Shown here: positions 6,826 through 53,444 of the stretch, piece after piece | Position numbering within the stretch: position 1 is the stretch's first letter | How the letters are laid out: every line of letters starts with the position of its first letter | Assembly (NCBI GenBank): GCA_022496805.1 | Contig: CM040091.1 | Span: 15,614,336 to 15,678,335 of the forward strand | DNA length: 64,000 nt | DNA from: Pohlia nutans | Taxonomy: Eukaryota > Streptophyta > Bryopsida > Bryales > Mniaceae | Reading direction: 5' to 3' | The notes under the pieces: generated by a model | Seen by the model: only the letters and a program-made list of their open reading frames with translations | The model's database searches: none | Told to the model about the DNA's origin: nothing | Program-made: the position numbers and the translations under genes

Positions 6826-6829
6826 AGAT

Positions 6830-15230: not shown

Positions 15231-15260
15231 ATTATAATTATAATTATAATTATTATTATG
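15163..15260. repeat. (AAT)n/(ATT)n microsatellite, self-complementary
   Basis: About nine AAT units are followed by about sixteen ATT units and then an ATAATT series, so the tract can fold on itself. Segment copy 2 has only a short ATT run at about 30808. Confidence 0.95.
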
Positions 15261-15909
15261 TTTAGCAAATAAAATGTCATTCATTAATGAATAAAGTATT
15301 GTATTCCATTGAACCAAACCCAAAGGACGGCAGGTAGAAGATCCAAAATTTTCCCTTGAAACAAGCAGTTAGTGGCGTAATCTTCGACTTAGTATTTTCT
15401 CCATATTTACTTTTGCATCTTGTTGTTATTGTCTAAGAGTGTAATTCTTGAAAACAAAGCGTTTTGTAGTCTCTCTCCTTATGGATCTCTGAGATAACAA
15501 AAGCCACAGGCAGACGTTGAATAATAAAAACAGGTAATAAAATTTCTCAGAAGGATGTTAATGAAAGTTTCATTTTTAGTGTCATTGATTTTGTCCAATC
15601 TTGAGCTGCCGGGTAGTAAAGATCTTTCACAAAGTTCAGTCTTCTAAAATGCATGTCCAATTGACAAGCATAATTATATCTAACGTGAAGATTTGAAAAA
15701 TCTAAAAGTAGGTTGAACAGGCGTTTCACTAAGTTAAAAGTTTGTAAATGAGCAACCCTGACAAGGGGTGGTCAAAAACCAATGGAGTATGTCACAGACT
15801 ATGTCACAGACTAGTACTTTGATTTTTGCCCCTTATTATTTTGTGATTGTTACTTGCTAACTGACCCATTCAACTGACCCCTCCAAGTCATATTTGGTTG
15901 GAGTTTGTT

Positions 15910-16016
15910 GTCTCTGCCCCACTATAAAAATGATTCATTTTCAAGGAGAATTTACATAGGTGAACAGTGTGAAAAAGTTGTAAAAGTAAATCTAGTATAA
16001 ATAGTAAGGCAGAGAC
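15910..16016. mobile_element. GTCTCTGCC-ended MITE
   Basis: Begins GTCTCTGCCCCACTATAAAA and ends AGTAAGGCAGAGAC. It contains ATTCATTTTCAAGGAG, the inverse of the core seen at 13331-13570. The counterpart in segment copy 2 is at 31675-31792. Confidence 0.65.
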
Positions 16017-16247
16017 TACCCAACTAGCCACTTGTTGTTATTCTTGTGTTGTAAATAATTCTTTTCCGCCCCAAAGGCCCAACTAATGAATTTCTAAAAT
16101 TTGTAGATAAATTTTTTAAATATAAAAATATACAAAATCTTCCGTCCCAATAGCCCAACTGCCGTGATGCGGGCAGACAGTGTTTCTTGCAGAACTAGGC
16201 GTATTCTGCCTCCGCCCGACACCGTATCACAGGAAGATAAATATAAG

Positions 16248-16376
16248 ATTCCCATATGAGAAACGGGGACAAATTTCCCACAATTGTAACTTTCCCAGAT
16301 CAAAAATACATTACAATCATCTCAAGAAAGTTACAATTGTGGGAATTTTGTCCCACTTCCCATATGAATTCCCATG
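16248..16376. mobile_element. Short foldback element (GGGACAAA...)
   Basis: The left arm contains CCCATATGAGAAACGGGGAC and CCCACAATTGTAACTTTC. The right arm is the inverse (GAAAGTTACAATTGTGGG, then GTCCCACTTCCCATATG). Arms are about 45 bp with a small loop of about 25 nt. Segment copy 2 lacks this stretch. Confidence 0.7.
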
Positions 16377-16876
16377 TGGGAATGTCAGTTTATTTCTGCC
16401 AGTGTATTCTCCCTACTTCCTCTGCTTGGATCTGCCTCGTCCATTAGGGTTTATTGTTAATCTTCTCTCTCATCTGTGATCCCACAATATTCACCATGAC
16501 TCTCAGCCGCAGCTGCCTCATTCACCAAAATGAATGTTGAGACTCTATTTGCGAATGCATTGAAGAGTCATTCCAAAGCTTGTACAGGAAAAAAGTTCAG
16601 TGTGAAGCCCAATATTGGGTAAAACAGTTGGTTATAGTGAAAACGCTTACACATACCCTGTTTTATCTATATGTACAGTACATGTATATGAATATGTATG
16701 TGAGATAGTCAAACATGCAGTATGGGTGCTGTGTTTGATACCAAGATACAAAAGTGCAAAACAGGCCCCGTGTCCGCTCACATGCATCAAATCACCTAAT
16801 ATTAACGCCCTCCTAAATAACAAAGCTAAGTCCATATGTCCATGTCCATTAACCACTAGTAATAATTGTGGAATAT

Positions 16877-16949
16877 TGTGCTTATATTTCTGGCTTCTTG
16901 TGACCAAAAGCACTCAGCACTAACACAAGAAGCCAGAAATATAATCACA
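16877..16949. repeat. 73-nt hairpin, 26-bp stem with one mismatch
   Basis: The left arm 16877-16902 (TATATTTCTGGCTTCTTGTG in its perfect part) pairs with 16924-16943, extending to 16949 with one mismatch. The loop is 21 nt. The size and near-perfect pairing resemble a young plant miRNA-like foldback or a very small MITE. It is absent from segment copy 2. Confidence 0.6.
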
Positions 16950-17546
16950 GTGCCAGGCGCGGTTTCATCCTTTTTCATTTATAGTAAGTGAAAAAGGACA
17001 CATTTCCTACTAGTGAACTTATATGGTACCCTAGTCCCCTATGGACTCAACCAGAGTCTCATGTTCCGCTTCAACATGCTTGATATCTGCTCCTTGTTTC
17101 GCACGAACGACCAGCACATTACCAATCTCAGCTGCGGAGTTCGACGTGACCCAAAACAAGTGGAGCCACCAACTCTGATGAAGAACTTTGGGCCACCAAT
17201 ACCACCGCGTTGACCACCTACAGCCATCTAATTAATATATCAGCATACCAGTGTTTCGCAGATCAAAAGACGAAGCTACGTAATAGGGACCTAACTCAAA
17301 ACAAGTTAGAAGAAACAATGTCATCACCACATTGCATAGTACACCAATTGGATGTCATGGAACACCTTTACTTACGTTGGGGGTGCTTGCAGCAAACAGT
17401 ACATCAAGAATTTAGGATCTCACTGATTTTAAGGATTTCCATGCGACATCCGATATTTCATCGGTTCGTACATTATTCGCATAGATTCCACACTCGTAGC
17501 GCATATCTGCAATTACAACCACATGCTCTTCAAAAGTAGAACCAAC

Positions 17547-17700
17547 TTAACCCCTAAGAAACCAAGGATTCACGGTTTTCAAATGACCACTTTGATCAAT
17601 GATCGTATATTAAAAACAACGATCAATAGAATCAGTGAAGAAAATAGCATATGTTGGTTAAAGACGATATTCCCTTCATGACTTCCTGGAAAAAACAACC
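17547..17700 (+). repeat. T1 MITE fragment, left end
   Basis: TTAA at 17547-17550, then CCCCTAAGAAACCAAGGATT and the T1 interior (TTTTCAAATGACC, GAATCAGTGAAGAA). The right end is missing. It is present at the same place in segment copy 2 (32732 onward), so it predates the duplication. Confidence 0.65.
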
Positions 17701-17896
17701 CTTGTCTTGGAGAATTCGCAACCGTCAACTCACCGTTTCTTATTTGAAGCAGGGTCCAAGTCATACTAACTCCTCAGGTTTCAAAGCACCACTCGCCCAG
17801 ATGTAAAACAGAATTCAGGTCAGTTCATTTGCCAACATAATTAATTCCAGAAAGAAAGCAAGAACTGAAATTTCAAAACCACATAAAAGCAGGATT

Positions 17897-18103
17897 TCAA
17901 ATTTGATATGCTTTCATTAGGAAGAAAAAACACTGATTTGCCATGTAGGGTTTCCAAAAACCCCCAAAACTATCATCCTCAATCTGAGTTTCATTATAAT
18001 AATCAATGCCCTCAACAAGATTGCTATCATCCATCATTTGCAAAACCCTAAACCTTAGTCCCTCAAAAGTGCAACATCTCATCTGTCCAGCATCATGAAG
18101 CAT
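17897..18103 (-). CDS. Short conserved ORF of unknown function (copy 1)
   Basis: Reads MLHDAGQMRCCTFEGLRFRV and continues through MMDDSNLVEGIDYYNETQ to a stop. The residue mix, with an acidic middle and few low-complexity runs, is more protein-like than most frames here. Segment copy 2 keeps it open at 33082-33288 with few changes. It could be one exon of a decayed gene. No family recognised. Confidence 0.3.
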   Translation of the reverse strand: MLHDAGQMRCCTFEGLRFRVLQMMDDSNLVEGIDYYNETQIEDDSFGGFWKPYMANQCFFFLMKAYQI

Positions 18104-18141
18104 ACATAAATTCTAGAAGTCTAGAGGTAGTCTTAACAAAA

Positions 18142-18350
18142 TTAACCCCTAAAGGACCAAAATGACAAATCCAATTGATAAGACAAAACAGAAAAATACA
18201 ATTAAAATGCGGTCAGATTTCATCACCGGGATCAGTGAAGAACATCATATGTGTTGATCAAAATAGAAACAAATTTTAATCAAAGGAAGACCATATAGAA
18301 CTTGCTCAAACATGCTGAGAAAACATGAGGTTCACTTTGGGTTGTTTCGC
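18142..18350 (+). repeat. T1 MITE fragment, left end
   Basis: Starts with TTAACCCCTAAAGGACCAAA (TTAA just upstream of the CCCC) and continues with the T1 interior, but lacks the right terminus. The counterpart starts near 33327 in segment copy 2 with CCCCCCAAAGGACC. Confidence 0.65.
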
Positions 18351-18390
18351 AAATGTTGGGTCTGTTTTGCAGAATGTGCAAACTAATCGA

Positions 18391-18703
18391 CATCAGGGAT
18401 TTAGGTCCTTGAGCAGTGATATTTAACGATTTTTGTATAACGTTCGATATTTCATAGGTTTGTACATTTTTCGCACGGATTTTGCACTGATTTCGCGCTA
18501 ATTCTGCATTGCATCCGTACACCTTCTACATTGAATCCGTACGCCTTCTACATTCACTCTTTTTGTTATCAACAAAGTGCGGATTCCGTGCGGAATTAGC
18601 ATGAAATCTGTGCAAAATCTGTGAGAAAAATGAACCAACCCATGAAATATCAGATGTCGCACAGAAATCATTTAAAATCCGTGGGGTTCTAAATTCCTGA
18701 TGC
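18391..18703. mobile_element. Foldback element with imperfect arms of about 125 bp
   Basis: The left part (CATCAGGGATTTAGGTCC ... TCGCACGGATTTTGCAC) is an imperfect inverse of the right part, which ends in ATTTAAAATCCGTGGGGTTC TAAATTCCTGATG. The counterpart at 33579-33863 keeps the structure with a 27-bp deletion. A related half element lies at 17398-17540 and near 32571. Confidence 0.7.
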
Positions 18704-19634
18704 GAGGTTTTTTTGTTGAATGTGCAAGCTAATAAAGGCTGAACACATTTGTCTCTCTTCTTCTTGGCACCTTTCTCATGTTTTCATGTATCTCGTTGTT
18801 TTCTGTTTCATTACTCAAGCTGATTGCAAGTTGACCAAGGTTAGTGTTCTTTCAAGCACGTTGGTTTTTGCAAGTCCAATCAGGGTGTGTAGCTCTAAAA
18901 TCAAGATTTCGTGTGCAATTTCAAGCAACTTACCAGTTCAAGCGCCCAAGCTTGGATCCACATTTAAGCAACGAAGAAGCTGAGCTCGTCAAACCGCAAA
19001 GCTGCTCAAGGGCGTTTGTATGGGTATGGTCCACTAGAATTCATGTCCCTGAGCACTCTTTTGACGATTTAAAGAATTTGAAAAATCCATTTGAGAAAGA
19101 GAAAATATTTTTGTGAAATCTAAAGTGGTAAGAATAGATCGTTCTGATGAAAGAGAAAAAAATTTGATAGAGAATTAAAAATAAGGCATTATATTTTAAT
19201 GGAGTATGAAACAAAGGGTAAACTAATGCATTGTCACAGTGCATAATATGCAGTGTGAATTCTAAAAGAGAAGGAGAGCCGATGGTTGGGGATGGAATTT
19301 TGAGCTATGGATTTTTCCAGTGTTCAAGTATGTGAAGAAAAATATCATTTAATTTTTCAAATTTTAAAATGTGTTATTTTTGGGAGGAATGAATTGTTTC
19401 TCTATTTTTAAAAAAACTTTTTTCATGGATTTCTTCTTTGAATGTACTTGAGAATGGAATTATACAAGTTGGATCGTTTTTAGATTTTTAAATGTAGAAT
19501 CAAATATGAATTATATTTACATTCAAATTTTTATCATAAATTGGTAAAATTGCTATTAAAATGGGAGTTTTGATATTCAAAATCTTCAACATAAAATCAC
19601 TTTAACATTCTAAAGTTTTGTTTTTTGGATAATT

Positions 19635-19924
19635 GAGTTAACCGAAAAGAAGCCCATCTAACCTCCCTTTTTGCCCTCCTTCTAACCTCTCTTTTGAACT
19701 ATACTTGGGTTGAATAGTGTCGTGTCATAACTTGTCCCCTTGTGGGCCATGGGCTTGGAGCTTTGGTAGGAGGTGTGGAGAATAATGACAGTGGCTTGCT
19801 TTAGATTGTCTCCCAACTCATCATGAACTAGTTTTTGCTCTATTTGTATTTCAATATGAGTTCAAGAGGAGTTCAAGAGGAGTTTGCTAAAACTTTCCTC
19901 TTTGAGCAGACTTTTCGGTTAACT
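19635..19924. mobile_element. MITE with GAGTTAACCGAAAAG termini
   Basis: GAGTTAACCGAAAAG at the left and its inverse CTTTTCGGTTAACTC at the right, 290 bp. Full-length relatives are at 34775-35064 and 56494-56814. The latter has clean ACT duplications, so the family makes 3-bp target duplications (PIF/Harbinger or CACTA type). Confidence 0.82.
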
Positions 19925-20770
19925 CTAACATGTACATAAATCTAGAAGATGGTTTACTCTTTTTTCAATAAATCATTGCTACATAATTTCCAATGAAAGT
20001 TATTTTTTAAACAAAATGCTCGTAGTGCACAAACATGCATCAAAATGTAGTTAGCTCGTTAAGAATAGTTAGTGGACTATAGCATACAAACGGCTTCAAC
20101 TCCCAGCATCCACTTAATCCTTAAACGTCAAGAGGGCCTGGACCGGGTAGCCCGGAAGGCATCTAAATTTTTGGAGGAAGAAATTTTTTTTATTTTTTTT
20201 TGCAAAAACGGCTTTGCAGTGCACTGCTGGCTAGCACTCTAGCACTCTAGCACTGCGGCCATAGGCTTGGAGCTTTGGTAGGAGGTGTGGAAGTCATTGC
20301 GAGGTGTGGAGAATAATGACAGTGGCTTGCTTTAGATTGTCTCCCAACTCATCATGTACTAGTTTTTGCTCTATTTGTATTTCAATATGAGTTCAAGAGG
20401 AGTTCAAGAGGAGTTTGCTAAAACTTTCCTCTTTGAGCTGACTTTTCGGTTAACTCTAATATGTACATAAATCTAGAAGATGGTTCACTCTTTTTTCAAT
20501 GAATCATTGCTACATAATTTTCGAATGAAAGTTATTTTTTGAACAAAATGCTCAAAGTGCACAAATGTGCATCAAAATGTAGTTAGCTCATTAAGAATAG
20601 TTAGTGGACTATAGCATACAAAGTTACAAACGGCTTCAAGTCCCAACATCCACTTAACCCTTAAACGTCAAGAGGGCCTGGACCGGGCAGCCTAGAAGGC
20701 ATCTAAATTTTTGGAGAAAGAATTTTTTTATTTTTTATTTTTGCAAAAACGGCTTTGCAGTGCACTGCTG
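19747..20770 (+). repeat. Internal 512-bp tandem duplication in segment copy 1
   Basis: The block from CCATGGGCTTGGAGCTTTGG (19747) recurs from CCATAGGCTTGGAGCTTTGG (20259). It contains most of the GAGTTAACC MITE and the left part of the T4 element. Segment copy 2 has the block once (about 34885-35400). Confidence 0.85.
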
Positions 20771-21022
20771 GCTAGCACTCTAGCACTGCAGCACTACTGA
20801 ACTTCAGCTGCCCCAACCTCAAAACTTGTTCAAATTGATGACTTTGATTGCTTACCAACGATTCCACAATCTCTCAAATGAGGCAAAAATTTGGTATCTA
20901 GATCGTTTTTTCAGTAGCTTTCCAACGCACCAATCCTCGCTTGATTTGGTTGAGAAAATCAACTTTTTTCTTCATTATTCTCTTTTAACTAAGCCCATGG
21001 GGCTTACCTTGACGTTTAAGGG
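20658..21022. mobile_element. T4 MITE, TTAA-flanked (365 bp)
   Basis: TTAA at 20654-20657 and 21023-21026. The ends are CCCTTAAACGTCAAG and its inverse CTTGACGTTTAAGGG. TTAA flanks with CCC-starting termini follow the piggyBac rule. The counterpart at 35257-35626 shows it was in the segment before duplication. Confidence 0.85.
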
Positions 21023-21220
21023 TTAAGCTTCAAACACCGGCTCATCTCATCCAAACCGTAGTGCCAACTCTAAACCCCAGCGCTACACCCTACAAACACA
21101 AAATAATCTTCATTGAAGCGCATCTAATGGAAGTTGCAAGGAAGAGAGAAGACGAACAGTAAACCCTAATGGGAGAGGCAAAAATTGTTGCTGACCAATA
21201 GTAGGAATGGGAGTATTTAA

Positions 21221-21787
21221 CCCCTAAAGGACCACACCTATGTTTCTCTCCAAACACTCCAAAGTATCCTTTGTCATAAAAAGACAAATCGTTTTTAATC
21301 CAAAACCTTTTTGACCAATTCAACCGTAGGATATTTTAACCAACTTGAATTTATTACAACCTAAAAAATTTCAACCGTTCAAGGTTCTTCAATAGTAAGA
21401 TTATAAGCTTCAAAGTTGTTTGCATTTTTTTTTTGGCTTGATGCCCCAAGTTTGAAACTTTCTGAAAATGCCCAAAATGCAAAGTTTAGTCTCAAATTTG
21501 TTAAAATGAATTTGGCAGTTCTGTATATGGGGGCGTTAGCTCACTATGTACCAAAATTTAGATGCATAGCTCATTGTATGAAAAATTTCAAGAGTTGCCC
21601 GCAATTAGGTTTTTCACCTTTGCATGACTGTATCTTTTGATTAATACATCATCTACGTATGCAAATTACGAACCCATCTTCGTTACAAAGAGTAGAATCA
21701 CCACAAAAAATCTCAATAATTGAGGATCAATACTCATTCCATACTCAGCTGACCGAACTTGGAAAATCAGCCTTGGTCCTTTAGGGG
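21221..21787. mobile_element. T1-type MITE (567 bp) with proven TTAA duplication
   Basis: TTAA at 21217-21220 and 21788-21791. The ends are CCCCTAAAGGACCA and the inverse of CCCCTAAAGGACCAA. Segment copy 2 has GGAGTATTTAAAGGGTATAG with one TTAA (36218-36221) and no insert. So insertion after the segmental duplication generated an exact TTAA duplication. The interior differs from the 230-bp T1 copies in the transporter introns, so this is a longer relative sharing termini. Confidence 0.93.
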
Positions 21788-22024
21788 TTAAAGGGTATAG
21801 GGCGGGGAACAAGCCCAAAATATTGAGTTCCAAATTATCTCTACACCATATTTTTCAGTAAGTTTTAGTGCACATTTGAGTATTAGAAGTGATTTTATTT
21901 TGAAATTTTTTAAGCTAAGAAAATTTAGAAGGTTTAGTCATTTTCCACCTCCAAAAAGATTTTTTTGATTTGAAGTTTTTTTGCCTGAGATAGACAAAAT
22001 TCAGAGAGGTTTTGAAGAATGTAC

Positions 22025-22994
22025 AATAGGGTGACATTCAAATTGGCCGTTTAGTAGTTCCAGGGATAGTGTCCTACACTGCTGCCAACTTTGACACCCT
22101 CCCCAAAGCTGAGAAATTGTTATTTTACCATGAAAATTTGGGGACAGCATCATCATTATGTTGAAAACATGCATACCAAATTTCAAGTCCAGGAGACTTA
22201 TACAAAAAAACTTATGCAAGATCTACCAACATGGGATAGTAGCTAGTGTCACAACTACCAACTTTGACACCCTCCCAAGAATTGAGGAAATTTTTTTTTC
22301 CCATGAAATTTTTGGAGCAAAAACATTTTTATGTTGTTTGCATGTGTGGAGGATTTCAAGTCCAAAAGACCCATACAAAAAATAATATTCCAAATCTACC
22401 AACATGTGTAGTTTTGAGAAACATGTTGATAGATATGGAATAACGTTTTTTATGTATGTCTTTTGGCTTTGAAATTTATCCCACATGTTACTAGCGTAGA
22501 GATGATCTTGTGCCAAAAATTTCATTATGTATCAACAAAAACTCAATCCTAAGGAGGGCGTCAAAGTTGGAAGTAGTAAAATGGTTTTCCCCTTTGTTTC
22601 TCAAAACTACACATGTTGGTAGATTTGGAATATTATTTTTTGTATGGGTCTTTTGGACTTGAAATCTTCCACACATGCAAAAAACATAAAAATGTTTTTG
22701 CTCCAAAAATTTCATGGGCAAAAAAAATTTCCTCAATTCTTGGGAGGGTGTCAAAGTTGGCAGCTGTGACACTAGCTGCTATCCCATGTTGGTATATCTT
22801 GCATAAGTTTTTTTGTATAAGTCTCCTGGACTTGAAATTTGGTATGCATGTTTTCAACATAATGATGATGCTGTCCCCAAATTTTCATGGTAAAATAACA
22901 ATTTCTCAGCTTTGGGGAGGGTGTCAAAGTTGGCAGCAGTGTAGGACACTATCCCTGGAACTACTAAACGGCCAATTTGAATGTCACCCTATTA
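22025..22994. mobile_element. Giant palindrome (970 bp), foldback element
   Basis: Ends AATAGGGTGACATTCAAATT and its inverse. The arms of about 400 bp (22025-22430 and 22595-22993) are near-identical inverses, and mirror-image ORFs on opposite strands confirm this. Each arm holds two diverged units of about 170 bp built around CCAACTTTGACACCCTCCC and CTACCAACATG, and the centre holds a further unit. TAC flanks both sides (22022-22024 and 22995-22997). Segment copy 2 has a single TAC (36449-36451) and no insert. No transposase is present. Confidence 0.92.
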
Positions 22995-23134
22995 TACATG
23001 AATTGGATGATAAGATAATGTGTTGTGATCGATTGTGTATAGTACACTAAATTATTTTTTAGTTTAACGAAGGAAACGTGCAAAATCAAGTAATATTTGA
23101 CCTCCAAAAAGAATTTTATGATCTGAGGTCACAG

Positions 23135-23203
23135 AGATCTTCATGACAACGGATTCTATGGCGAAATTCCCGACTTCAGAGACTTTGAGTGGTCACTGAC
23201 ACT
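23135..23203 (+). pseudogene. Isolated leucine-rich-repeat exon fragment (copy 2)
   Basis: Same 69-base block as 4857-4925 with two silent-looking base changes. Because the segment copy starts within the acceptor sequence, any upstream exons are not part of the duplication. Confidence 0.42.
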
Positions 23204-24027
23204 GTAAGCTTCTCACTCCAATTGTTTGTTCTCAACTATGAGTACTGAACCCTAAATTTACGTTAGGCAAACATGCTTATTGCTGCGGGTTTTTGTTTTA
23301 TCATGCTTGAAATGTCTATTGCATATTGGATGCATTTCTTTATGCGTAGATTTGTTACTTTACCTCAATCTTTAACTTGTTGGATTCTTGAAAAGGAAGA
23401 TCATAGTTTGACATGTCCTATGATTGTGCATCTAAATCAATTAAGAATAGTAATAGGAACTGGAAATGAAATTCCATGTTCCTACATATGAGTGCTCACC
23501 AAAGTCAATTATCAGTAATAATAAGAAATTTAATGACCCATGTGTAAAAGGAGGCGATTTCAGATTACATGCACTTGCCAGAGCAACACTTTGTTGAATA
23601 AGAAGTATAAGTTAACTTGATTTTTGAGATTGCGGTGAAAAATGATTTTGAAACAGACAAAATGTGGGTGTTACATTGTCTAACTCGTATGCGTATGTGT
23701 TAACGGAGCTGCAGGATACACAGTGGTGCCACCGGAGAGTCTCGGCATTCCTCTGCAGGATGCCATCATGCAGGAGCTTGCCCATCTCTATTTTGACAAG
23801 GTACAACAAAAATAAATCTTCCGCTTCCTCAATTTCGATTTTCGTGAAAATATTGCTCGGAAAAATTGGATTTCTGTTCAGATGTCATGAATTTGCCACT
23901 TTTTTGGAGAAATAGGGTTAAGGTTTTGTTGAAATGTGAGCACGCCTTCAGTTGCTTATGTCTTGTATCATGTCGCATTGACGAGGAAATTCTAGATTCC
24001 ATGACTCTATAGTATATGGATTTTCGG

Positions 24028-24569
24028 GGTTTACCAATGAATTATCTTTAAGTTAATTATATGAATGCCAAATTTGAAGGCCAAAAAATTCACCAAAAAA
24101 AAGTTATTCAAAATTAACCAACATAGTAGTCAAAGCTGGTAGCAATGAAATGGTTTACCCCATTTGTTTCCCTCAACTACACATGTTGGTAGATTGTTAA
24201 TATCTTTTTTTGCATTAGTCTTTTGGCCTTGGAATATTTACCATATGTTATTAACAGAAAGAGGTTTTTGTTACAAGAATTTCATGGAAAGAAATAAAAT
24301 AATACAATCTTTGGGAGGCTGTCAAAGTTGGCAGCATTAAAAAAATTTCCACAGCTACCAATGTTGGTAGATTTTGTATAATTTTTTTTTGGTGAATCTT
24401 TTGGCCTTGAAATTTGGTATACATATACTTAACTTAAAGATAATTCTTTCATAGAACTTTCGTGGTAAAACACCAATTTTTGAGCTCTCGGGAGGCTTTC
24501 AAAGTTGGCAGCACTGAAATTTTTCTGACTGCGAATTCAAAAATGACATTTTGATTGGTACCCCACTGT
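24028..24569. repeat. Relative of the giant palindrome units, in segment copy 2
   Basis: Occupies the place where segment copy 1 has 6687-10067. It contains two diverged units with GTCAAAGTTGGCAGCA and CTACACATGTTGGTAGATT, the same motifs as in 22025-22994. Its outer parts are loosely inverse (TTATCTTTAAGTTAA... and ...TTAACTTAAAGATAA), suggesting a smaller foldback member. Confidence 0.65.
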
Positions 24570-25636
24570 ACATTTTTGGAGACTCGTATTGCACCGTATT
24601 AATGCATATGTATAGGATTTACAATAGTTCAAATCAAGATTTCCATTCATTTGCAATGGATCTCTAAAGGATCTACACCTCCTCGTGCACAAAATTAATT
24701 TTAAAGAAATATTACATTATTCAACACTTTACAAAAGACATAACCACGTAATTGGTCACCTGTACTATTATATATTGTCGTATGGACATTGGTGTAGTGC
24801 CTCAAATGCACTTTTGATTTATGTATTGTAATGTACAATGGGCTTTACAAAAGCAACCCGGTTCTACAAAAGAAACAAAACCCAACTCCACAAAAGGAAC
24901 CTAATTCTATAAACGGAACAAGAGTACTTTAGTTAGTGACTCTTCACTCTTTACAAAAAACATAATAATTATGTATTATATAATGCACTATAGTGCAAGC
25001 ATGTTATGTAGGACAGTTGCATTGTCAGAACAGTCATGTCGAACTTATTCCAACAAATGCTTATTTAATCTATAATATAACACAAACTATGCACACATGC
25101 TCATGAACAAAATTTTGTTGTAAGAACTCCCAATCATGCTAGATACCGACATGAGCCAACCTAATCTATTATATAATATTGACTATGCATGCACACTCAA
25201 ACCCAAACCATTTTGTTTACGTTGTTTTTGATACTTTAGTTTTATTTTATTTTATTTTATGATCACTTCAAATTGCCAACATTAAAGAGTAAAAAACAAC
25301 CCCAACCCCAACCCAAACTCGAACCCACCCAGGGGTACACTCTTACTCAACCCAAACTCGAACCCACCCAGGGGTACTCTTACTCAACCCAAACCCAATT
25401 AAAACCAACTTGTCTGCACATGTCTACCTCTTTCAGAACCACATGACGACAATTTCCCTGCTAAAATTGCCGAGCACAAGCCAACCTAGTACTTCATAGT
25501 TCATATTGTTGTATTATAAATCACTGCATAATTGTGGTCATGTGGCATACCACGAAACCTTAAAAATTAAGCATAAATTGATGGGACCACATCAGCTTCA
25601 TGGCAGTGCATTCAAAGGCCAAGTTTCATGAGTCTG

Positions 25637-25900
25637 TTAATTGATCTTGGCATGGATGTGGCTGCCTATGTTGCCTTTTGTGAGTGGAGGACCCAACATA
25701 GCAGCTCCAACATCAAAACGTGGTTGCGCAGGACCCATCAGAGGAGCAGCAGGTACTGCCGCAGGCTGACGTCCTACACCAGCCGCACCTGCCCCATTCG
25801 GAGCTAAGGCCTGCTGGCGGCCTTGCCGTGCATTCACTTGCCCCATCTTTTGTAGCACCAACTCCAGCTGATTGAAAAGTGGCCCTTTTCTAGATATCAT
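25637..25900 (-). CDS. Conserved 87-aa ORF, Ala/Pro/Gly-rich (copy 2)
   Basis: Counterpart of 11373-11636 in segment copy 2, the same length and start, with roughly nine residue changes (for example RQGRQQ for LHGHQQ and the last residue Asn for Asp). Both copies remaining open is weak support for coding. The changes include several non-synonymous ones, so there is no sign of strong purifying selection. Function unknown. Confidence 0.35.
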   Translation of the reverse strand: MISRKGPLFNQLELVLQKMGQVNARQGRQQALAPNGAGAAGVGRQPAAVPAAPLMGPAQPRFDVGAAMLGPPLTKGNIGSHIHAKIN

Positions 25901-27064
25901 AAACCAAAGAATTCATCGCCAACAACACGCACAGAATGTCAGAAATTGTCACACAGAACGCATGGGGACATGCATGTTGAGACACAAGAAATACATGCCA
26001 TATTCGTTGTATTCGTTATATTTGTTATATATTCAAATATTCGCTACATAAAGACTTTTTGCAGTCTTGTTTTTATCTTCGACTTGAAGATAAAATGTTT
26101 TATCTCTTTACTAGTATTTTTATATAAATGATTAACAACTAACAACACCAGCTTTTAGAATTTCATTATAGAATCATTATAATTTAGCATTATTATTTTT
26201 TGTTTTCAATTACTATTTTTTTTGATGAATTTTGGAATAACTAGCATTCGTCTAAAAATCTGCAAAAGTCTCAATATACCGAATATGGCCTTTCAGGTAT
26301 AATACTCGTTTTCTAGTCTGAGAAACGCAGACACGAAATTTTCAGACTTAGAAACAATCTAACTGTAATCTCAAACAAATTAAAAGGCATTCCCAGTCCG
26401 GCCTGAGATACGCATTTTCAGTCTGAGAAACACACCGTTTTAAACACATCCAGCGACTACCGGTACTGATTATTAGAACTACAAACGCTTACTTCAAATA
26501 AAGACATAAAAAATCAGTGCAGATCTTGTCCCCCAAATCACAGTGATAGTTTCAACACAATCTGAAGTGTTAGTGCTTTCAACAGAAGCTGGAAGTGTCG
26601 ACTCAATCAGTAGTTTCAAGATGGAGCTAGAAGTGAATCGCTGGCTAAACATGCGTAATTGATAGCTAGCTAGCTCGATCAATACGTACAATATTTCGAG
26701 AGGTATAGCGCAGATCGTGACGGACTGGGATCCGAAGCGAATTTGTCAGTGCAGTCTAGCTAAAATGTGTGTGAAAACTGAGGACTCAAAGGCATTAGCT
26801 TCAATCGTGCGTGTGAAGCTGGAAAAAATTAAGGAATGGAAACTAAGTTAGTAACTTACAGAAAGTTCAAAGCCCACTGGAGTTGAAATGCTGGAAGCAA
26901 GCGAAGCAACAACTCCACCACAGAGGGAGAGGGAGCTCCCACAAGATCACAAGTGTGTCGATGAACCGCCGACTACATCCTATTTATTGACAGCTTGGGA
27001 TATTAATAATAAAATACAGCAAGGCCTCCTTACATGCTGGGTGAGTGGGTAAATTTTATAATTG

Positions 27065-27230
27065 AAATTTCGTATGAACAGTGAGTTCATACTAGTAATT
27101 CCCCGGTTCCATCTTTCCACGGGGGTACAAAACGATTTACGTTACCGCTTTCATGTGGACCCGGTGGACCGTGGATCGGAAAGGGGGGCGCTGGGGAATT
27201 GGTATGAACTCACTGTTCATACGAAATTTC
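27065..27230. mobile_element. MITE with TIR of about 38 bp
   Basis: The left end AAATTTCGTATGAACAGTGA and onward to TAATTCCCC is mirrored at the right by GGGGAATTGGTATGAACTCA ... TACGAAATTT. The GC-rich core has no ORF support. A related CACTGTTCATTCGGAATTTC sequence occurs once in each segment (14296 and 29658). Confidence 0.8.
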
Positions 27231-27570
27231 AAATAATAAGATTCGGGGGCTAGGATGTTGTATCGGGAACCTCCCGTGTATTATCTCGTAATCCGACTTC
27301 CCTGCAGTCGTCCACCCGCGACACTCAGGCGCGGTGAGTGAGGGGAGCTCGATCGCTGGTAGGGACAACATGGGCCCTCCGATCCGGCTGCAAGATCGCA
27401 CGGCCAATCTCGCAACACGTGGCATTAGTTACACAGGCTGACTGAGCTTACTGTCGGGCCGCGGTTTCAGGTGGCAGCTCTGCACGGATTTTTCAAGGGG
27501 GCAGAGTATTCCGTTGCCCGAGGTCATGGGGTTGCTGAAATTCAACTGCAGCCCAAGGCTGCCCAAGGTC

Positions 27571-27812
27571 GTGGAGAACACACTTCAGAACTCACTTTGC
27601 TTCACACTAGCTCACACTCTAAGGTTGATTGTCCAGAAACCACCAACCTTAAGCAATCTGGCCTATTTTTGTCAGTCCTAAATTTGAAAAAAAACATGAC
27701 CGCATTTGAAATAGGTTTTGGTGTGGATTGCAAAAATTTGCAACATCTAATTCGCATTTGTCAATTTTATACAAAATTTCAAAGTGGAAAGTAACTTGTG
27801 ACCCAAATCTAA
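27571..27812 (+). repeat. Dispersed repeat, inverse of 32072-32290
   Basis: Shared in inverse orientation: GGTTGATTGTCCAGAAACCA, CATGACCGCATTTGAAATAG, TGCAAAAATTTGCAACAT and TTACTTTCCACTTTG-type blocks. Confidence 0.75.
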
Positions 27813-28103
27813 CCTCTAGGTTTCCCCACGTTCACACCATGTGGTACTAACTTTCACTCATAATGATACCCAAAACCACCAACTATTTCTTTGCAGTGCT
27901 TGGCGTGCCATTGGTCACCTTGGATAGTGAAATTAGTGGTTTTGGGTCTCAATTGTGGTGGTCTCAAGAAACTTAAATCTACATGTCATAATTGGGGGAG
28001 GTGGTGGTTTTAGGACTTCCTACTTTAGAACACACTCTATTCTAAAACATACTCTGCTTAAGACCACGCTAGCTCCACACAAGCTAAATCACCGCAAAGT
28101 TAA

Positions 28104-36084: not shown

Positions 36085-36579
36085 TACACCCTACAAACAC
36101 AAAATAATCTTCGTTGAAGCGCATCTAATGGAAGTTCCAAGGAAGATAGAAGACGAACAGTAAACCCTAATGGGAGAGGCAAAAATCGTTGCTTACCCAT
36201 AGTAGGAATGGGAGTATTTAAAGGGTATAGGGGAACAAGCCCAAAATATTGAGTTCCAAATTGTCTCTATATCATATTTTTCAGTAGATTTTAGTGCACA
36301 TTTGAGTATTAGGAGTGATTTTATTTTGAAATTTTTTAAGCTAAGAAAATTAGAAGGTTAAGTCATCTTCCACCTCCAAAAAGATTTTTTTGATTTGAAG
36401 TTTTTTTGCCTCAGATATAGACAAAATTCAGAGAGGTTGTGAAGAATGTACATGAATTGAATGATAAGATAATGTGTTGTGATCAATTGTGTATAGTACA
36501 CTAATTTATTATTTAGTTTAACGAAGGAAACGTGCAAAATCAAGTAATATTTGACCTCCAAAAAGAATTTTATGATCTG

Positions 36580-41935: not shown

Positions 41936-44900
41936 ATGTCAAGCGCTTTGTACAGTAGCCGGTGCGTGAAGGGAGCATCCCCGCTCTCGAGGGTGGGTTT
42001 CTCGTACAATGGGATCGTGTTCAATCCTTTGTGCGAGTTGCGTACAAAACGAGGAGGCTGGAATTTGAATGGTCAGTTACAGGCGCGGGCGGCTTCGGCG
42101 TCGGAATTCTCTCGGCAAGACAGTGTGGGAAGAAGGAAGCGAGGCGGGAGCATTGAACAGCCGAGTAGTAGCAGTGGGCTTTCCAACAGTAAGAGTATTC
42201 GCAGCCCTTCGTTGGGCTTGTTTGTGGAGCGCACCAAGAATGCCGTTCATTGGAGTAACGCCAAACGACCTCGCCCAAGAGCTACTGTCATTGAGAAGAA
42301 ACTCAAGCGCTCCTTGACTGCTGAACGCCTTCAAGCTCCTGGTATACCAACTCACCGCTTGTTTCATTTTTGTTTTACGAAAGAAGTGGTGTGTATGTTG
42401 GAGCAGGTTTTTTTTTAATCTTTTGCTTTACTAAAGAAGTGGTAAGGTAGAGGGCTCCAAAACCAACAGGGTTCTAATTCCAACAGAATTTAGACCATGC
42501 ATTTATTTTAAAACACACATCATAGAGCTCTTATTGAATGTTGACCAAAATGATAAGCTATCTATGATCTACTTAGATTTAGGTTCTAGGATGATTATCG
42601 TGCGTAGATTCTGTTGGAATGAGAATCCTGTTGTTTTCGGAGCCCTCTACCTTACATGTTGGTACATTGTTGAAACTTTGCCGGAGCAAGTTTTTGCTTT
42701 ACGAAAGAAGTGTGTATGTTGGTACATTGTTGAAACTCGCTGGAGCAAGTTTTTGCTTTACGAAAAATTTGTGTGTATGTTGAAACTTGTTGGAGCAGGG
42801 GTCGGTTTAGTCTTTTGCTTTACGGAAGAAGTGGTACATTGTTGAAACGGGGTTGTTTTTTGATTTTTGTGAAGGTTTTTTGATTAATATGTTTTGGTTT
42901 CCTTTTGCTTCAGGGAATTTGAAACATAAGGCGCCTGTGTTACCTGTGCCTGCATGGCAGTTGTCGTTTCCACACGTTGCTGTTGCGACTCTCACGTCTG
43001 TGCTCTTTGGCTACCACATTGGGTGAGTGTTAACCCTTTAAGGACCAAGAATTCGTGGTTTACAAATGACAAATTCAATCATTCATATAATGAAAAGTAT
43101 GATTCAGATAGGACCAAATTTTATATCACCAAAATTAGTAAAGAACATTGCATGTGTTGACCAAAAACATAAATAAATTTGAACAATAGAAACTTCACAT
43201 AGAACCCGCTCAAAACTGCTTAAAAAACATGAACCCAAATTTGGCCTTCTTGGTCCTTAAAGGGTTAAAAAATAATGGTTGTTGTTTTTGTTGTTTTTGA
43301 TTGATTGATTTTTAACCTCTAGAGCTCAAATTGGGCCTCGTGTATTTAAAGCATTTTTGAGTAGGTCCTATGTGGAGTTTCTTTTGTTAAGTTAAAAAAT
43401 AATAATTCTCACATACAATGCTTTTTCTTCACTGATTCTGGTGATATAAAATTTGGTCTTATCTTCATTATATTTTTCACAATACGATCGATTGAATTTG
43501 ACATTTTAAAGCAATGAATCCTTGGTTATTTTGGTTCTTATATTCGTTGTTCTTGATTAATTTATGAGATGGCTAAATATGGGAGCGTTTTGGTTTGGCA
43601 GGGTTGTGAATGTTCCTCTTCAATATATCGCCAAAGACCTTGGATTTGCTGGCAATGCCCTCATTCAAGGTACACACAGCATCAATTACCCTCTCATAAT
43701 TTGAGGTTGTGATGCTCTTTTTATATTGACAGTATTGTTTGTTGTCATTGGCAAATATAATAAGAAGCTTTGTTACATGAATTGCAGGGTTCGTTGTGAG
43801 CATTTGCCTCGTCGGTGCATTCCTGGGTTGTGCTGCTAGCGGTATTGTTGCTGACAAATATGGTAGAAGACGAGCTTTTCAATTGAGTTCTATCCCTATG
43901 ATCTGTGGTGCTGCATTCAGGTAAAAATTTACTTGTGGCCTCTTGAAGATTAAAGGTGTTGTGCTGATTGTACACTTATAACTCTTTTATATCACCTTTT
44001 TGATAACTGAGCTCACAAACAAGTGCCTAATCACAGGTTTACACAATTATAGCCAAATTTGGAGAGTGTGATAATAACGAGGTGTTATTGATGTGATATT
44101 GGAGAGGTGCTTTAGAAGCCATTTCTTCCATTTTGGGATATGTCTGATTAGATTGCATTCCTTTTGTGCAGCGCCCTCGCACTAAACGTGCCTGTTATGC
44201 TCCTCGGACGATTTCTTGTGGGAGCAGGATTAGGTCTTTCTGGCCCAGTTACATCTCTTTATATTTCTGAGGTATGTCCCCATACTTGATGAAAACAGCT
44301 TTGTTTTTTATGCATGTTTAGAAGCCCAAATTGGGCCTCTGTGTTTTTTTCAGCAGTTTTGAGTGGGTCATATGTGGACTTCCTTTTGTTCAAGTTTTTT
44401 TTTTTTTTTTTTTTTTTTTTGACCCACACATGCAATGTTTTCCAGTGATTTCGGTGACATAAAATTTGATCTTATCTGAATTATATTTTAAATTGAATTT
44501 GTCATTTTAAAACCATGAATCGTTGGTTCTTTAATGGTTAAAATATTCTTCTGTTTCTTCTACTGAATGTGTGCATGTTGGTATCTGAGCAGGTTTCTCC
44601 GATTCATGTGAGAGGAACCAATGGCAGTCTCCTGCAAATTGCAGGTTGTATTGGAATTCTGTCTGCTCTAGTAGCTGGCCTCCCTGCAGCGCATGTTGCT
44701 GGATGGTAAGTAAATAATTCATTTAACATGATTGTATAATGAAATTTTTTATACTAAGATGTATTGTATATATTATGAGTTACAAATCGTATTTCGAGAA
44801 CTGTTTTTTTCCCTACCTCTAGTGTTAACCCCTAAAGGATTCATGGTTTTAAAATGAAAAATTGAATTGATCATATTGTGAAAAAGATAATTCAGATGAG

Positions 44901-47900
44901 ACTGAGTTTTGTATCACTAGAATCAGTGAAAAGAAGTGCGTATGTTGGTCAAAAAACAATCAAATTTGAACAAAAGGAAGTGTACATAGAACCTACTCTA
45001 AATTGCTAAAAGAACATGAGGTGGGTTTCTTGGTTCTTTAAGGGTTAACTTTGTAGCGTTGGTTAACTGACAATGATCAGTAAAGGGTAAAGAGAGACAA
45101 CATCCAGGGATGTCTTTTAAACAGTTTTGAAATGCAAATGTGCAGGTGGAGGGTTTGTTTTGCGCTGTCAACTATTCCAGCCGTTTTGCTTGCTGTAGGA
45201 ATGCAATCATGTGCTGAAAGTCCCCAGTGGCTCTTTAAGGTAAAAAGACTTTTTAGAGTACCAAGTTTTTCTCAATCCTTGATGAAACTGTAAAATGGTG
45301 CTATGACTTTACAAAGGTTAAGGAGACTTGTTTTTTTTCTATTGTAGCAAGTCATTTGACAATTTGTTGTCTCCTGCTCAGCAACGGAAATTGTTCAAAG
45401 CAAAGAAGGAATTTTCAAGGCTATGGGGCGCGGAACAAGTGAAGTCGGCTATGAATGAACTTTCTCGAGGGGGACAAGATGATAATAATAAGGGTGGAGC
45501 TTCTTGGAAGGCTTTAATTGAGCCACGCTACATCAGAGGTGAAAATGCACACATTAGTTATTAACCCTTAAAGGATCAATATTAAAATGATACTCCCTCC
45601 GTCCCAAAGTTAGTCATGTTTGAAAGTCATGTCTAAAAGTGCTTTTTTAAGTAGTTCAAAAAAATACTTCCTTGTGGCTAATTTTATTTAGGTTGCAATG
45701 AACACATGCAATGTTCTTCGATCATTCTAGTGACATAATTTGAAACCTTTTTTAATCATGTTTCTTACAATATGATCAATGAAATTGGCTCAAAGAAATA
45801 CCAAGCAAACAAGTTGGACAATAACTTTGGGACGGAGGGAGTATTCAATTGATCAGATTGTGAAATTATAATTCACATGGGACCAAATTTTATACCACCA
45901 GAATTAGTGAAGAACATTGCATGTATTGGGTAAAAAATCAAATAAACGAGAACAAAAAAGTTCATATGAGACCTACTCAAAACCGCTAATAAAAAATGGG
46001 CTTCTTGGTCCTTTAGGGGTTAAAAAATTAAGGTTTTTTTCCTTGACGTGATTCACATACTCAGGTTTAATTTGATTTCCTGCATTTCTCTGACAAAAGT
46101 ACCGTGGTTTCGTTACGTTTGCAGTTGTGATCATTGGTGCAGTACTATTTGCGTTTCAACAATTTGCTGGCATAAATGCCATCTTCTACTTCTCATCATC
46201 TGTTTTCAAGAGTGCTGGTCTTACCTCTGAAGTAGGGGCAAGTGTTGCTGTGGGAGTGGTGAACCTAATTGGTAAATGAATCCCTCTGCTTTGCTCTTCT
46301 CTTGCAAATGCACGTTGGCGATTTTTTTTACTCTATTCTTGTATATTGAGGGGTTTAGGGTTTATGTTTCTGATGCGGTTCTCTGTTCCATGCAGCTTCT
46401 TGTCTGGCATGCTACTTGATGGATAAAGTGGGTCGACGCACTCTTATGATATATAGTTTCACTGGAATGGTGAGTTCATCTTTAATTGTGAATTTCAAGG
46501 TTTTAGTTTCAAAGGAACATTTACAAGTTGGTTTTTATATTGAGCAGGTCTACAAAATTTCGGAACTTTTTTGGTAACTAACGTATATGAGTTCAGGAAG
46601 AGTCCAATGACATAGTAACAACGATTCTTTATAGCAAATTGATATTGGAGATTGTGAAATTTCTTGATGCTTTTTATTAATGTGACGTTCTTGTAAATTT
46701 GCAGGGTTTGGCTATGGCAGTACAAGCAGCCACAGCGTCTATACCTGCATTGAGTTCAGCCAAAGGAGTAGTGGCACTTGTGGGCACTTTAGTGTAAGTA
46801 ATTCCTGGTTTTTTTGAATTGATTTTGCCTTAATGTTAGATAGCAGTTTGTTGACTTTTGGATAGAGCATTTAAGATGGAATGGCTTAGGATGACTGGTT
46901 TAGGTACCAATTAATTTTTGGGTTAATTCCCTTTTCATACTACTTAAAAATGAAAATTCTTGCCAAATCTGAGTTTGTGAGTCCAAACCAATTTCTATTT
47001 TGTTTGGTACTTTAGGTGCTTTTATGGCTTATAATATAAATTTTGTAGCAAATCCATCGAGCTTTTGAGTTTTGATCGATGGTTTTAACCTTTAAATTTT
47101 TTTTTACCTGGATGCAGATATGTATTCATGTTCGCTCTAGGTGCAGGACCAGTGCCAGCATTGATATTGCCTGAACTCTTTGCTGATCGGATTCGCGCGA
47201 AAGCCCTGTCTGTTGCAATGTGTGTTCATTGGGTAAGCTCTTTCTGTCACCTACTACTGTGCAGTACTCTTTGATTCTTCACCCATCTTTTCTTAATAAC
47301 GTGACATGCCTATTAAGGGCAAAGGATTCATAGTTTTACATCAAGACCAGTTCAATTATTGCATTGTGAAAAAGATAATTCAGATGTGACCAAATTTAAT
47401 ATCAGTGAAGAACATTGTATATTGCGTTGGTCAAATTTTGAACAAAAGGGAGCCTACATAGGACCTGCTAAAGAAAACATAGGACCTACTCAAAACTGCT
47501 AAAGAAAACACGAGGCACAATTTGGGCTTCTTTGTGAACCCCTAAAGTATTCACGGTTTTAAAATGACAAACTCAATAGATTCTATTGTGAAAATATAAT
47601 GAATATGGAACCAAATTTTTGAATAACATTACATGTGTTGGTCAAAAAACAAACCAAAAAAAGTTCACCTCAAAAAGGCTAAAAATGAAACACACGAGGC
47701 TCTATTTGGGCTTCTTGGTCCTATAGGGGTTAACTTGAAAGTTGATTACAGTACCTTTTCAAAACATTGATTTCTATCATTCAAACATTTAGGGCATGAT
47801 TTCTTCTCACATTTTAACCCCCAAAGGACCAAGAAGCCCAATTGGGCTCCATGTTTTTTTTTTAAAAATTAGTAGGTCATGTTTGGACTTTCTCTAGTTC

Positions 47901-48337
47901 AAATTTATATGTTTTTTGACCAACACATGCAATGATCTTCACTAGTTCTAGTGATATAAAATTTGGCCCCATTTGAATTATATTTTTCACAATATGATCA
48001 ATTGAATTTGTCATTTTAAAACTGTGAATTCTTGGTCCTTTAGGGGTTAAAGCTTCTGAAATCATTTCTTTTGTTACGGAAGCAACCAATTTTGGCAAAT
48101 CACGTTCCATAGAAATGTTTTTTCTGACTAGAGTTTTGGAAATGAGTGCTGCAGGTAGCCAATTTCACGGTGGGATTGACGTTCCTATCTTTGTTGAAGA
48201 AGCTGGGGACTGGCAGTCTCTATTCAGGGTTTGCATGCATTTGTCTGGCTGCTGCTCTCTTTGTGAGAAGATACGTGTTGGAAACCAAAGGTCGGTCACA
48301 GGGGGAAATTGAAGCTTTGCTGATGGCAAATATCTAA
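41936..48337 (+). CDS. pGlcT: Plastidic glucose transporter, pGlcT type (MFS sugar porter)
   Basis: Exports glucose from starch breakdown across the inner plastid envelope in the pGlcT family. Exons: 41936-42341, 42914-43022, 43602-43669, 43788-43920, 44172-44271, 44593-44705, 45146-45239, 45382-45538, 46125-46271, 46396-46469, 46705-46793, 47118-47232, 48155-48337. All junctions are GT-AG and in frame, giving 595 aa. The Ser/Arg-rich N-terminus (about 1-120) fits a chloroplast transit peptide. The MFS core follows, with motifs DKYGRRR (217-223), ESPQWLFK (334-341), QQFAGIN (405-411), DKVGRR (452-457) and ETKG (578-581). Arabidopsis pGlcT is somewhat shorter, the extra being N-terminal. The exon 8 acceptor at 45381 was chosen because it keeps phase and gives LFK-QRKLFKAKKEF, which aligns with the family. 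Larger introns are full of MITEs (see 43034-43264). The family call is strong; the exact substrate is inferred. Confidence 0.93.
42445..42652. mobile_element. MITE with TA duplication in transporter intron 1
   Basis: Inverted ends AGGTAGAGGGCTCC match for about 45 bp in total. TA lies on both sides (42443-42444 and 42653-42654). Ends resemble 35689-36084 (AGGTAGAGG), so probably the same Tc1/mariner-like group. Confidence 0.85.
42656..42850 (+). repeat. 60-bp tandem units in transporter intron 1
   Basis: ATGTTGGTACATTGTTGAAA, GGAGCAAG and TTTTTGCTTTACGAAAGAAG repeat about three times, with partial units also at 42372-42440 on the other side of the MITE. Confidence 0.75.
43034..43264 (+). mobile_element. 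T1 MITE, full-length (231 bp), transporter intron 2
   Basis: TTAA at 43030-43033 and 43265-43268. Ends CCCTTTAAGGACCAAGAA and its inverse TTCTTGGTCCTTAAAGGG. Interior hallmarks of the family are AAATGACAAATTCAAT, CAAATTTTATATCACCA, AGTAAAGAACATTGCATGTG and CTCAAAACTGCTTAAAAAAC. It has no coding capacity. This is a good reference copy for T1. Confidence 0.92.
43312..43535 (-). repeat. Decayed T1 MITE, transporter intron 2
   Basis: Reverse-oriented T1 interior (TTTTTGAGTAGGTCCTATGT, GATATAAAATTTGGTCTTAT, CACAATACGATCGATTGAAT) with eroded ends. Confidence 0.75.
44310..44540 (-). mobile_element. T1 MITE, transporter intron 5
   Basis: Reverse orientation, from AAGCCCAAATTGGGCCTC to GAATCGTTGGTTCTTTAATG GTTAA. 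Interrupted by a poly-T run at about 44396-44420. Confidence 0.8.
44829..45044 (+). mobile_element. T1 MITE, full-length (216 bp), transporter intron 6
   Basis: TTAA at 44825-44828 and 45045-45048. Ends CCCCTAAAGGATTCATGG and TTTCTTGGTTCTTTAAGGG. Confidence 0.9.
45565..46019 (+). mobile_element. T1 MITE with nested Stowaway, transporter intron 8
   Basis: TTAA at 45561-45564 and 46020-46023. Ends CCCTTAAAGGATCAATATT and TTCTTGGTCCTTTAGGGG. The T1 body is split by the 45593-45841 element. Confidence 0.9.
45593..45841. mobile_element. Stowaway-type MITE nested in T1
   Basis: Ends CTCCCTCCGTCCCAAAGTTA and its inverse, the classic Stowaway (Tc1/mariner) terminus, with TA on both sides (45591-45592 and 45842-45843). 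249 bp. Confidence 0.93.
47313..47535 (+). repeat. T1 MITE copy, degenerate ends, transporter intron 12
   Basis: T1 interior (AGGATTCATAGTTTTA, AGATAATTCAGATG, CTCAAAACTGCTAAAGAA) with a short internal duplication of the ACATAGGACCTGCTAAAG part. It abuts the next copy. Confidence 0.75.
47539..47729 (+). mobile_element. T1 MITE, transporter intron 12
   Basis: Left flank TGAA (mutated TTAA) at 47535-47538 and right TTAA at 47730-47733. Ends CCCCTAAAGTATTCACGG and TTCTTGGTCCTATAGGGG. Confidence 0.85.
47818..48046 (-). mobile_element. T1 MITE, full-length, reverse, transporter intron 12
   Basis: TTAA at 47814-47817 and 48047-48050. Ends CCCCCAAAGGACCAAGAAG and CTTGGTCCTTTAGGGG. Confidence 0.92.
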
Positions 48338-49659: not shown

Positions 49660-50521
49660 CCCCTAAACGTACCAACCCTTTGAAGAGAGGTAGATTCTAG
49701 TGTCAAAAGTAGATATTAGCATGGCTTAAATGTACATGAAGAGTACATGAGAAGACCATTGCAAGCATAAAATTTACCCAACAAATTTGACATACTTGTA
49801 GTTGGAGGCTTCTCCAATATTATCAATAGTTCCCCATCACAAGAGATTTATCGTAATTGGTAGAGAATTTAATAGGTTTTCAAAGGAGACTTGGATGAAA
49901 GCCATTTAACCCCTAAGTGCCCAATCAACCATATTATGCTTGATTTTTGGTCAAACATCCAAAAAATCAAGTGTTTTAGATTTATTGTAGTTGGTATTTC
50001 CATTAGATGTTTAAGTTAAGTTATGATACATCTTTTGACCGTTGGGATTGGAAAATAGAATTCATTTGAAGTTTTTCCACCGTTGAGAAATTTGAAATTT
50101 GAGTGTCCAAAATACAAAGGGCTTTCTAAGAATGCTCCAATCATAGGTCTCTTTTATTTTTTTCACTTTCATATTTTTACTACTTGTAAATGTATCTTTT
50201 ATCTACTTTAAATAAAAAAATTGATATTAAATTTGACAAATATATATTTATTTTGAATTTTTATCTTGTTTACATAATAAAATTTGTAAATATTCAAAAT
50301 ATCTTCCAATCATGTTGAAATTTTCGTCATACCTTCATAGTGCTGATGACTATCAATGAAAAAATATAAATCATCCAATGTGATGTTTCAAGTATGCAAA
50401 TTGTAGTGATTTGACTTTTTCAGAATAGGTGAGGACATTTAGGGGTTAAGGTTGTATGAGAAAGTTACAATGGTTTGAATCTGTTCATGATCCAGTTTCT
50501 GCACGCTAGGACGTTGAGAGG
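49660..50521. mobile_element. T2 MITE carrying a nested T3 element
   Basis: TTAA at 49656-49659 and 50522-50525. Ends CCCCTAAACGTACCAACCC and the right end CTAGGACGTTGAGAGG, diverged. The interior matches 53123-53444, with a break at GAAAGCCAT where the T3 element sits. Confidence 0.85.
49910..50445. mobile_element. T3 MITE (536 bp), TTAA-flanked, nested in T2
   Basis: TTAA at 49906-49909 and 50446-50449. Ends CCCCTAAGTGCCC and the inverse of CCCCTAAATGTCC. The undisturbed T2 copy at 53123-53444 shows that the insert interrupts T2 sequence. Confidence 0.87.
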
Positions 50522-53122: not shown

Positions 53123-53444
53123 CCCCTTAACGTACCGATCCTTTGAACGCAAGTAGATGTTAGCCTGAAAAATAGATTTTAGCATGACTCAAATGTACAA
53201 TAAGTGTACATGAAAGGACCATTGCATGCATGAAATCTACCCAACAAATTTGACATATTTGCATTTGGAGGCCTCTCCAATATTATGGACCTCTCCCCAT
53301 CACAAGAGATTTACTCTCATTGGTAGAGAACTTAATAGGCTTGCAAAGGTGACTTGGATGAAAGTCATCCCACATTGCATGAAAAAGTTACAGGACTTTG
53401 AATCCGTTCATGATCCAGTTTCTGGACGTTGTGACGTTTAGGGG
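53123..53444 (+). mobile_element. T2 MITE, full-length (322 bp)
   Basis: TTAA at 53119-53122 and 53445-53448. Ends CCCCTTAACGTACCGATCC and GGACGTTGTGACGTTTAGGGG (19 to 21 bases), inverse with a few mismatches. The reference copy for T2; other members are at 28104 and 49660. Confidence 0.9.

Follow-up and report, generated by a model that had tools for sequence, protein, structure and literature searches.

T1, an element of 567 bp, is very probably a high-copy piggyBac MITE in a land plant, served by a DDD transposase of the PF13843 type that is encoded elsewhere in the genome. It lies in the window, the whole stretch of 64,000 nucleotides analysed here (C7:15614336-15678335), within a whole-genome set of 697.8 Mb in 332 contigs. 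The sequence-only reading had placed an insert at 21221-21787 between two TTAAs; these coordinates are exact, and the insert ends in a perfect 14-bp terminal inverted repeat (TIR). The features of T1 and of its empty site are the following:

21217..21220, no strand: left TTAA target duplication of T1
21221..21787, plus strand: T1, non-autonomous piggyBac-type element, 567 bp
21221..21234, plus strand: left TIR of T1, CCCCTAAAGGACCA
21774..21787, minus strand: right TIR of T1
21788..21791, no strand: right TTAA target duplication of T1
36218..36221, no strand: empty site with a single TTAA in the other segmental copy

The inverted arms of T1 are 14 bp long and 100% complementary, or 18 bp counting the TTAA, and the element starts with CCCCT, one base off the strict CC[C/T]T motif of piggyBac. 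Its longest stop-free stretch is below 90 codons and, lacking a long frame, T1 must rely on a transposase encoded at another locus. A weak test of the window with one insect sequence as the only query found no remnant of a transposase, and a plasmid collection search and an exact-pattern search of a viral collection gave no match. The host is taken as a land plant because the light-harvesting family has 131 exon-by-exon matches in the genome and the window has GRAS-domain exons (58621-60241, minus strand). The light-harvesting matches form arrays on seemingly paired related contigs (C11, C12, C1, C2 and others), a hint of an old genome duplication. The window also holds a Copia-like polyprotein fragment, named by eye, at 3-1949 on the minus strand.

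By self-comparison, the window holds a segmental duplication in tandem, its copies at about 4851-23129 and 23129-36584, with T1 in the first copy. When T1 and one TTAA are removed and the flanks are joined, 352 of 369 aligned positions are identical to 36082-36452. The junction itself is free of gaps, 7 gap columns lie elsewhere, and the JC distance is 0.048. This alignment bears out the earlier observation that the other segmental copy lacks T1 and has one TTAA in its place, at 36218-36221. The further statement, that the element is proven by its empty site, stands as regards a precise empty site and falls short as regards insertion after the duplication, excision being seamless. For the same reason the empty site is evidence of mobility and not of direction. 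Passages of PMC7351741 describe the restoration of one TTAA upon piggyBac excision, and T1, if a piggyBac MITE, might have been lost seamlessly from copy 2 rather than inserted into copy 1. We consider this rather unlikely, although nothing decisive speaks against it, a third copy of the site not having been found within the window. Against a consensus of 28 copies, the T1 of the window differs by 4.95% and the remaining 27 by 1.2-3.2%, and the age of T1 here may be about that of the duplication. Since the divergence of T1 is close to the JC distance between the flanks of the segmental copies, either order of duplication and T1 insertion is possible.

A second insertion, at 22026-22994 (about 970 bp), is likewise present in copy 1 and absent from copy 2; it has 405-bp inverted arms with 98% identity, and the duplication at its flanks resembles TACA. 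Another repeat occurs in four places, 19628-19927, 20257-20458, 34768-35066 and 56488-56815, with inverted GAGTTAACCGAAAAG ends in three.

The preference for TTAA was followed from the window to the whole genome. Within the window, CCCCTAA comes after TTAA 14 times and after each of seven other AT tetramers 0 times, while the TIR core, with up to 3 mismatches, follows TTAA at 18 of 24 sites. Genome-wide the 14-mer CCCCTAAAGGACCA has 18,800 exact copies, as against 1 for the reversed control, and 15,723 of them (83.6%) are preceded by TTAA. A genome search with T1 gave 2,723 first-look candidates, of which 40 were scored; these are 92-100% identical, and 38 of them cover all 575 query bases. 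The sequence-only reading had suggested aligning T1 copies and looking for TTAA at their flanks. In 28 of the 40, located on 14 contigs and with their ends set by internal homology, TTAA is found at 28 of 28 left ends and 26 of 28 right ends, the two misses being a TTCA and a one-base shift; the query held both TTAAs, and this sample leans slightly to intact ends. Among the 19 of these 28 copies that were located by an exact internal 22-mer, position -4 is T in 19 of 19, while position -5 is T in eight, A in six, G in three and C in two. Counting TTAA-bounded pairs with inverted ends matching at 11 of 14 positions proved non-discriminating, with 25 for TTAA and 4-33 for six other tetramers; it is the CCC start that sets TTAA apart from other tetramers, and not the inverted-pair count. 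A table of 26 ends had been chosen on TTAACC and was left out as a test of TTAA preference.

Several other families in the window are flanked by TTAA:

20658..21022, plus strand: family E element, TTAA on both sides, also present in the other segmental copy at 35257-35626
43034..43264, plus strand: family A MITE copy, TTAA on both sides, TIR CCCTTTAAGGACCA
44829..45044, plus strand: family A MITE copy, TTAA on both sides
45565..46019, plus strand: family A MITE copy, TTAA on both sides, broken by a Stowaway-like insert
47818..48046, minus strand: family A MITE copy, TTAA on both sides
49660..50521, plus strand: family B element carrying nested element C
49910..50445, plus strand: element C nested in B; the sister B copy at 53123-53444 is colinear without C
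53123..53444, plus strand: family B element, TTAA on both sides

The Stowaway-like insert, at about 45593-45841, has CTCCCTCCGTCCCAAAG ends and TA flanks. The TIR of family A is 16 bp long, and the copy at 43034-43264 begins with CCCT. In family A the presence of TTAA goes with the quality of the TIR: it precedes 12 of 12 ends that match at 11 or more of 14 positions, 2 of 6 with 9-10 matches and 0 of 9 with 8 or fewer. These 27 ends lie within the window and were located by internal homology, using a model built from seven copies whose TTAA ends were visible when they were chosen and from which 20 columns per side were then trimmed. One of the 12 well-matched ends, at 32736, is the segmental duplicate of that at 17551, and two ends with TTAA, at 18146 and 33330, fell outside that search range. 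Element C provides another empty site: after removal of C and one TTAA, its family B host aligns gap-free to the sister at 53119-53448. The sister reads CCCA where TTAA is expected, and this site therefore tells how long the duplication is, but not which letters it has.

The genome has a large set of piggyBac transposase domains. The piggyBac transposase domain PF13843 has at least 116 matches scored among 1,305 first-look candidates, on 22 contigs, with a best E of 1.6e-81; many matches are without stop codons, and those listed run from profile position 1-5 to 347-349. Contamination is argued against by their occurrence on 22 contigs, chromosome-scale ones included. At the sites that correspond to D268, D346 and D447 of the moth piggyBac, its catalytic residues according to passages of PMC7351741, D stands in 20/20, 19/20 and 20/20 loci, respectively, the exception being N in L012. 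The frames that cover PF13843, stop-free in the match, are 1,102 aa long in L014, 1,083 in L028 and 1,002 in L010 and L018. The domain sits in the C-terminal half of these frames. In L014, L010 and L028 an N-terminal extension of ~500-620 residues, Gly/Arg-rich in L014, precedes it and has no Pfam match.

Of the at least 116 loci, 23 were read over 7-10 kb, 20 of these at 9.9 kb. Among the first 20, 11 could be given paired TTAA-CCC ends and the other 9 could not, the 11 boundaries being mostly picked on TTAA; in the 20 loci the TIR core follows TTAA at 23 of 39 sites. Four copy pairs have boundaries set by the stop of homology instead, which falls within one base at the outer TTAA edges, with CCC ends adjoining and the transposase inside. 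L010 and L018 are 99.4% identical over 5,038 bp, L023 and L028 95.4% over 5,131 bp, L014 and L017 89.7% over 5,577 bp, and L009 and L011 match in two pieces, at 89.9% and 94.3%. Another copy, L057, has an identity of 97.5% with L014 over 5,557 bp and ends at the same limits. The ends of one member of each pair are:

L017: CCCCTCAAGGCCCAAG/CCCCTCAAGGCCCCTG
L010: CCCTCAAGCGCCTAAA/CCCCTAAACGCCGGAG
L023: CCCTGTAACGCCTGAA/CCCCTAAACGCCGGAG
L009: CCCTTAACTGCCGGCG/CCCTAAAATGCCGGAC

These ends bear a family likeness to those of the window MITEs. In the downstream pieces (1.2-1.3 kb) of three more transposases, TTAA-CCCTTT occurs at the usual distance in L061 and L062 and is absent from L060, and L004, read over 4.2 kb, has no TTAACC[CT] end. 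A family A copy starts at the very TTAA that ends the autonomous L010 (L010 6891-6894; L002 4045-4048), one TTAA being common to two elements.

A protein search with the L017 transposase matched 120 of 2,492 candidate proteins. The two nearest relatives are unnamed (55 and 61%), while the named ones, at 27-35%, are nearly all animal, with one labelled as a gammaproteobacterial MAG. In a FastTree of 57 sequences, one quick tree with midpoint rooting and only the core of the moth sequence, the 20 loci and ten unnamed proteins group together with a support of 0.98, apart from the named animal proteins. The plant loci form several deep branches in it, some joined with low support, and this depth suggests that they have been resident for long and do not stem from a single recent arrival. 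PF13843 had 0 matches in 14 control genomes, which are uninformative on plants because the light-harvesting family was matched among them only in Synechococcus.

The MITEs can be linked to the transposase-bearing elements to different degrees. The right end of family A matches the left end of L017 at 86% over 36 bp including TTAA (E 6e-6), and their likeness beyond the TIR has a z of 7.0, reached by 0 of 200 shuffles. L022 and L059, two transposase loci with 94.6% identity over 1,951 bp, carry TTAA-CCCTTTAAGGACCA where the usual spacing to the domain would place a left and a right end, respectively; only one end of each lies within the stretch read. This sequence is the TIR of the family A copy at 43034-43264 and matches the T1 TIR at 12/14 positions. 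A protein search with L059 scored 94 matches, none of them a third copy with more than 51% identity. For element C, the left end compares to L019 with a z of 3.0 (3 of 200 shuffles, among 22 comparisons) and a 35-bp blastn match joins it to L021 (E 6e-4), which weakly suggests that C derives from the L019/L021 type.

T1 itself shares its 14-bp TIR with family A. The sequence-only reading had called for a DDD transposase gene with TTAA-flanked termini of this kind, and PF13843 genes do lie between CCC-type ends, although the exact ends of T1 were not among them: no complete transposase-bearing element with the 14-bp T1 ends was found in the 23 loci read over 7-10 kb, and the best transposase-linked ends (L017 left, L022 left, L059 right) match at 12/14. 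The subterminal bases of T1 were compared to 22 autonomous ends and none was clearly above chance, the best z being 2.6; a visual likeness of the right subterminal part of T1 to the right end of L014 failed shuffling. We infer that the partner of T1 would be a piggyBac of the group of these transposase-bearing elements.

The piggyBac assignment of T1 is supported by the TTAA-flanked T1 copies together with the PF13843 transposases between CCC-type ends. It rests on transposases and not on termini alone, because the PF13843 elements end at TTAA/CCC and keep the DDD triad. The features of piggyBac that are present include the TTAA target duplication with a precise empty site, TIRs within 12-19 bp (14 bp in T1, 16 bp in family A) and a PF13843 transposase inside elements with such termini in the same genome. 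Sola3 too has TTAA as its target. Kolobok also duplicates TTAA, but its termini read 5'-RR...YY-3', as passages of PMC9587614 describe, while those of T1 are CC...GG, and a Kolobok identity was rejected on this rule. In the search made, which used the PF13843 profile, transposases of other superfamilies were not met at these termini. With the transposase genes between CCC-type TTAA termini belonging here to PF13843, an origin of T1 in one of these other TTAA-targeting superfamilies, Kolobok or Sola3, is very improbable.

It is even harder to accept that T1 is a MITE of the PIF/Harbinger (Tourist) or Tc1/mariner (Stowaway) type, with a TSD of 3 bp or 2 bp, respectively, that mimics TTAA. The position of the cut within TTAA cannot be read from DNA alone, as TA plus A/T, TTA and TTAA give the same letters. 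However, a TA or TWA target would leave position -4 variable, and the outermost T is invariant (19/19) while the next base out varies; on the four invariant bases TTAA, both the 3-bp TWA TSD of PIF/Harbinger and the TA TSD of Tc1/mariner were rejected. The transposase-bearing elements with such ends are, moreover, piggyBac.

If T1 is a piggyBac MITE, a piggyBac (DDD, PF13843) transposase encoded elsewhere in the genome would bind its ends, cut where CCC meets TTAA, by way of a TTAA hairpin, and join T1 into a TTAA target, giving a copy between two TTAAs; departure of T1 would leave one TTAA. The moth piggyBac is cut via a TTAA hairpin, joined to TTAA and leaves one TTAA on excision, as described in sections of PMC7351741. 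By analogy, the transposases found here may move T1 in trans with the same hairpin chemistry.

On balance, the plant is probably home to a radiation of autonomous piggyBac elements of its own, one both long-standing and recently active, with several deep transposase lineages, a near-identical pair and MITE offspring in thousands. Its elements would be of 5.0-5.9 kb, with open frames of about 1,000-1,100 residues and a long N-terminal extension. The insect piggyBac has been borrowed for plant work as footprint-free, according to passages of PMC10905368, and such a radiation, if true, would provide a plant transposition system that is native and leaves no footprint, with the stop-free piggyBac frames as native candidate transposases for plant biologists. 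Elements of this kind may sit under the wrong superfamily, or none, in plant annotation.

Most discussion of piggyBac concerns animals, fungi and protists. The statement of the sequence-only reading that it is seldom reported from land plants needs correction, as listings exist. PiggyBac is among seven angiosperm MITE superfamilies (PMC10004981), 1,230 repeats of a fern are labelled PiggyBac (PMC6890710), and Table 2 of PMC4438587 gives it for all groups studied, land plants included. A MITE survey of 207 plant genomes recognizes five superfamilies plus Micron, and a term search in its main text (PMC12550479) met neither piggyBac nor TTAA. Because of these listings the piggyBac kind of MITE is already known in plants. 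The angiosperm PiggyBac MITEs of PMC10004981 share the assignment of T1 and are known from its accessible part by superfamily name only, without sequences. No description of an autonomous piggyBac in a land plant was found in the literature searched, which held few subscription journals and no supplements.

The piggyBac of Trichoplusia ni (PDB code 6x67) is similar in its TTAA duplication, 14-bp CC-type ends, PF13843 domain and conserved D268/D346/D447. It differs in host, in a length of 2,472 bp as opposed to 5.0-5.9 kb for the autonomous elements read here, and in a protein of 594 aa as opposed to frames that reach 1,102 aa in the loci read and carry a long extension at the N-terminus. Kolobok (T2-MITE) has the TTAA target of T1 and, unlike it, AG/RR termini. 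The coral piggyBac MITEs (CMITEs), as described in passages of PMC2872659, resemble T1 in the TTAA TSD, in TIRs such as CCCTTTAAGCCCTA and CCCCTCAGTGTCCG and in an empty allele, but they are about 100 bp long and live in an animal, while T1 has 567 bp and family A 230 bp. The same source gives a TIR of 12-19 bp and a CC[C/T]T start as the piggyBac criterion, and counts as piggyBac-type its coral family III, which is one base off CC[C/T]T like T1. The notable part is the diverse set of autonomous piggyBac elements, with near-identical copies and open frames, in a land plant.
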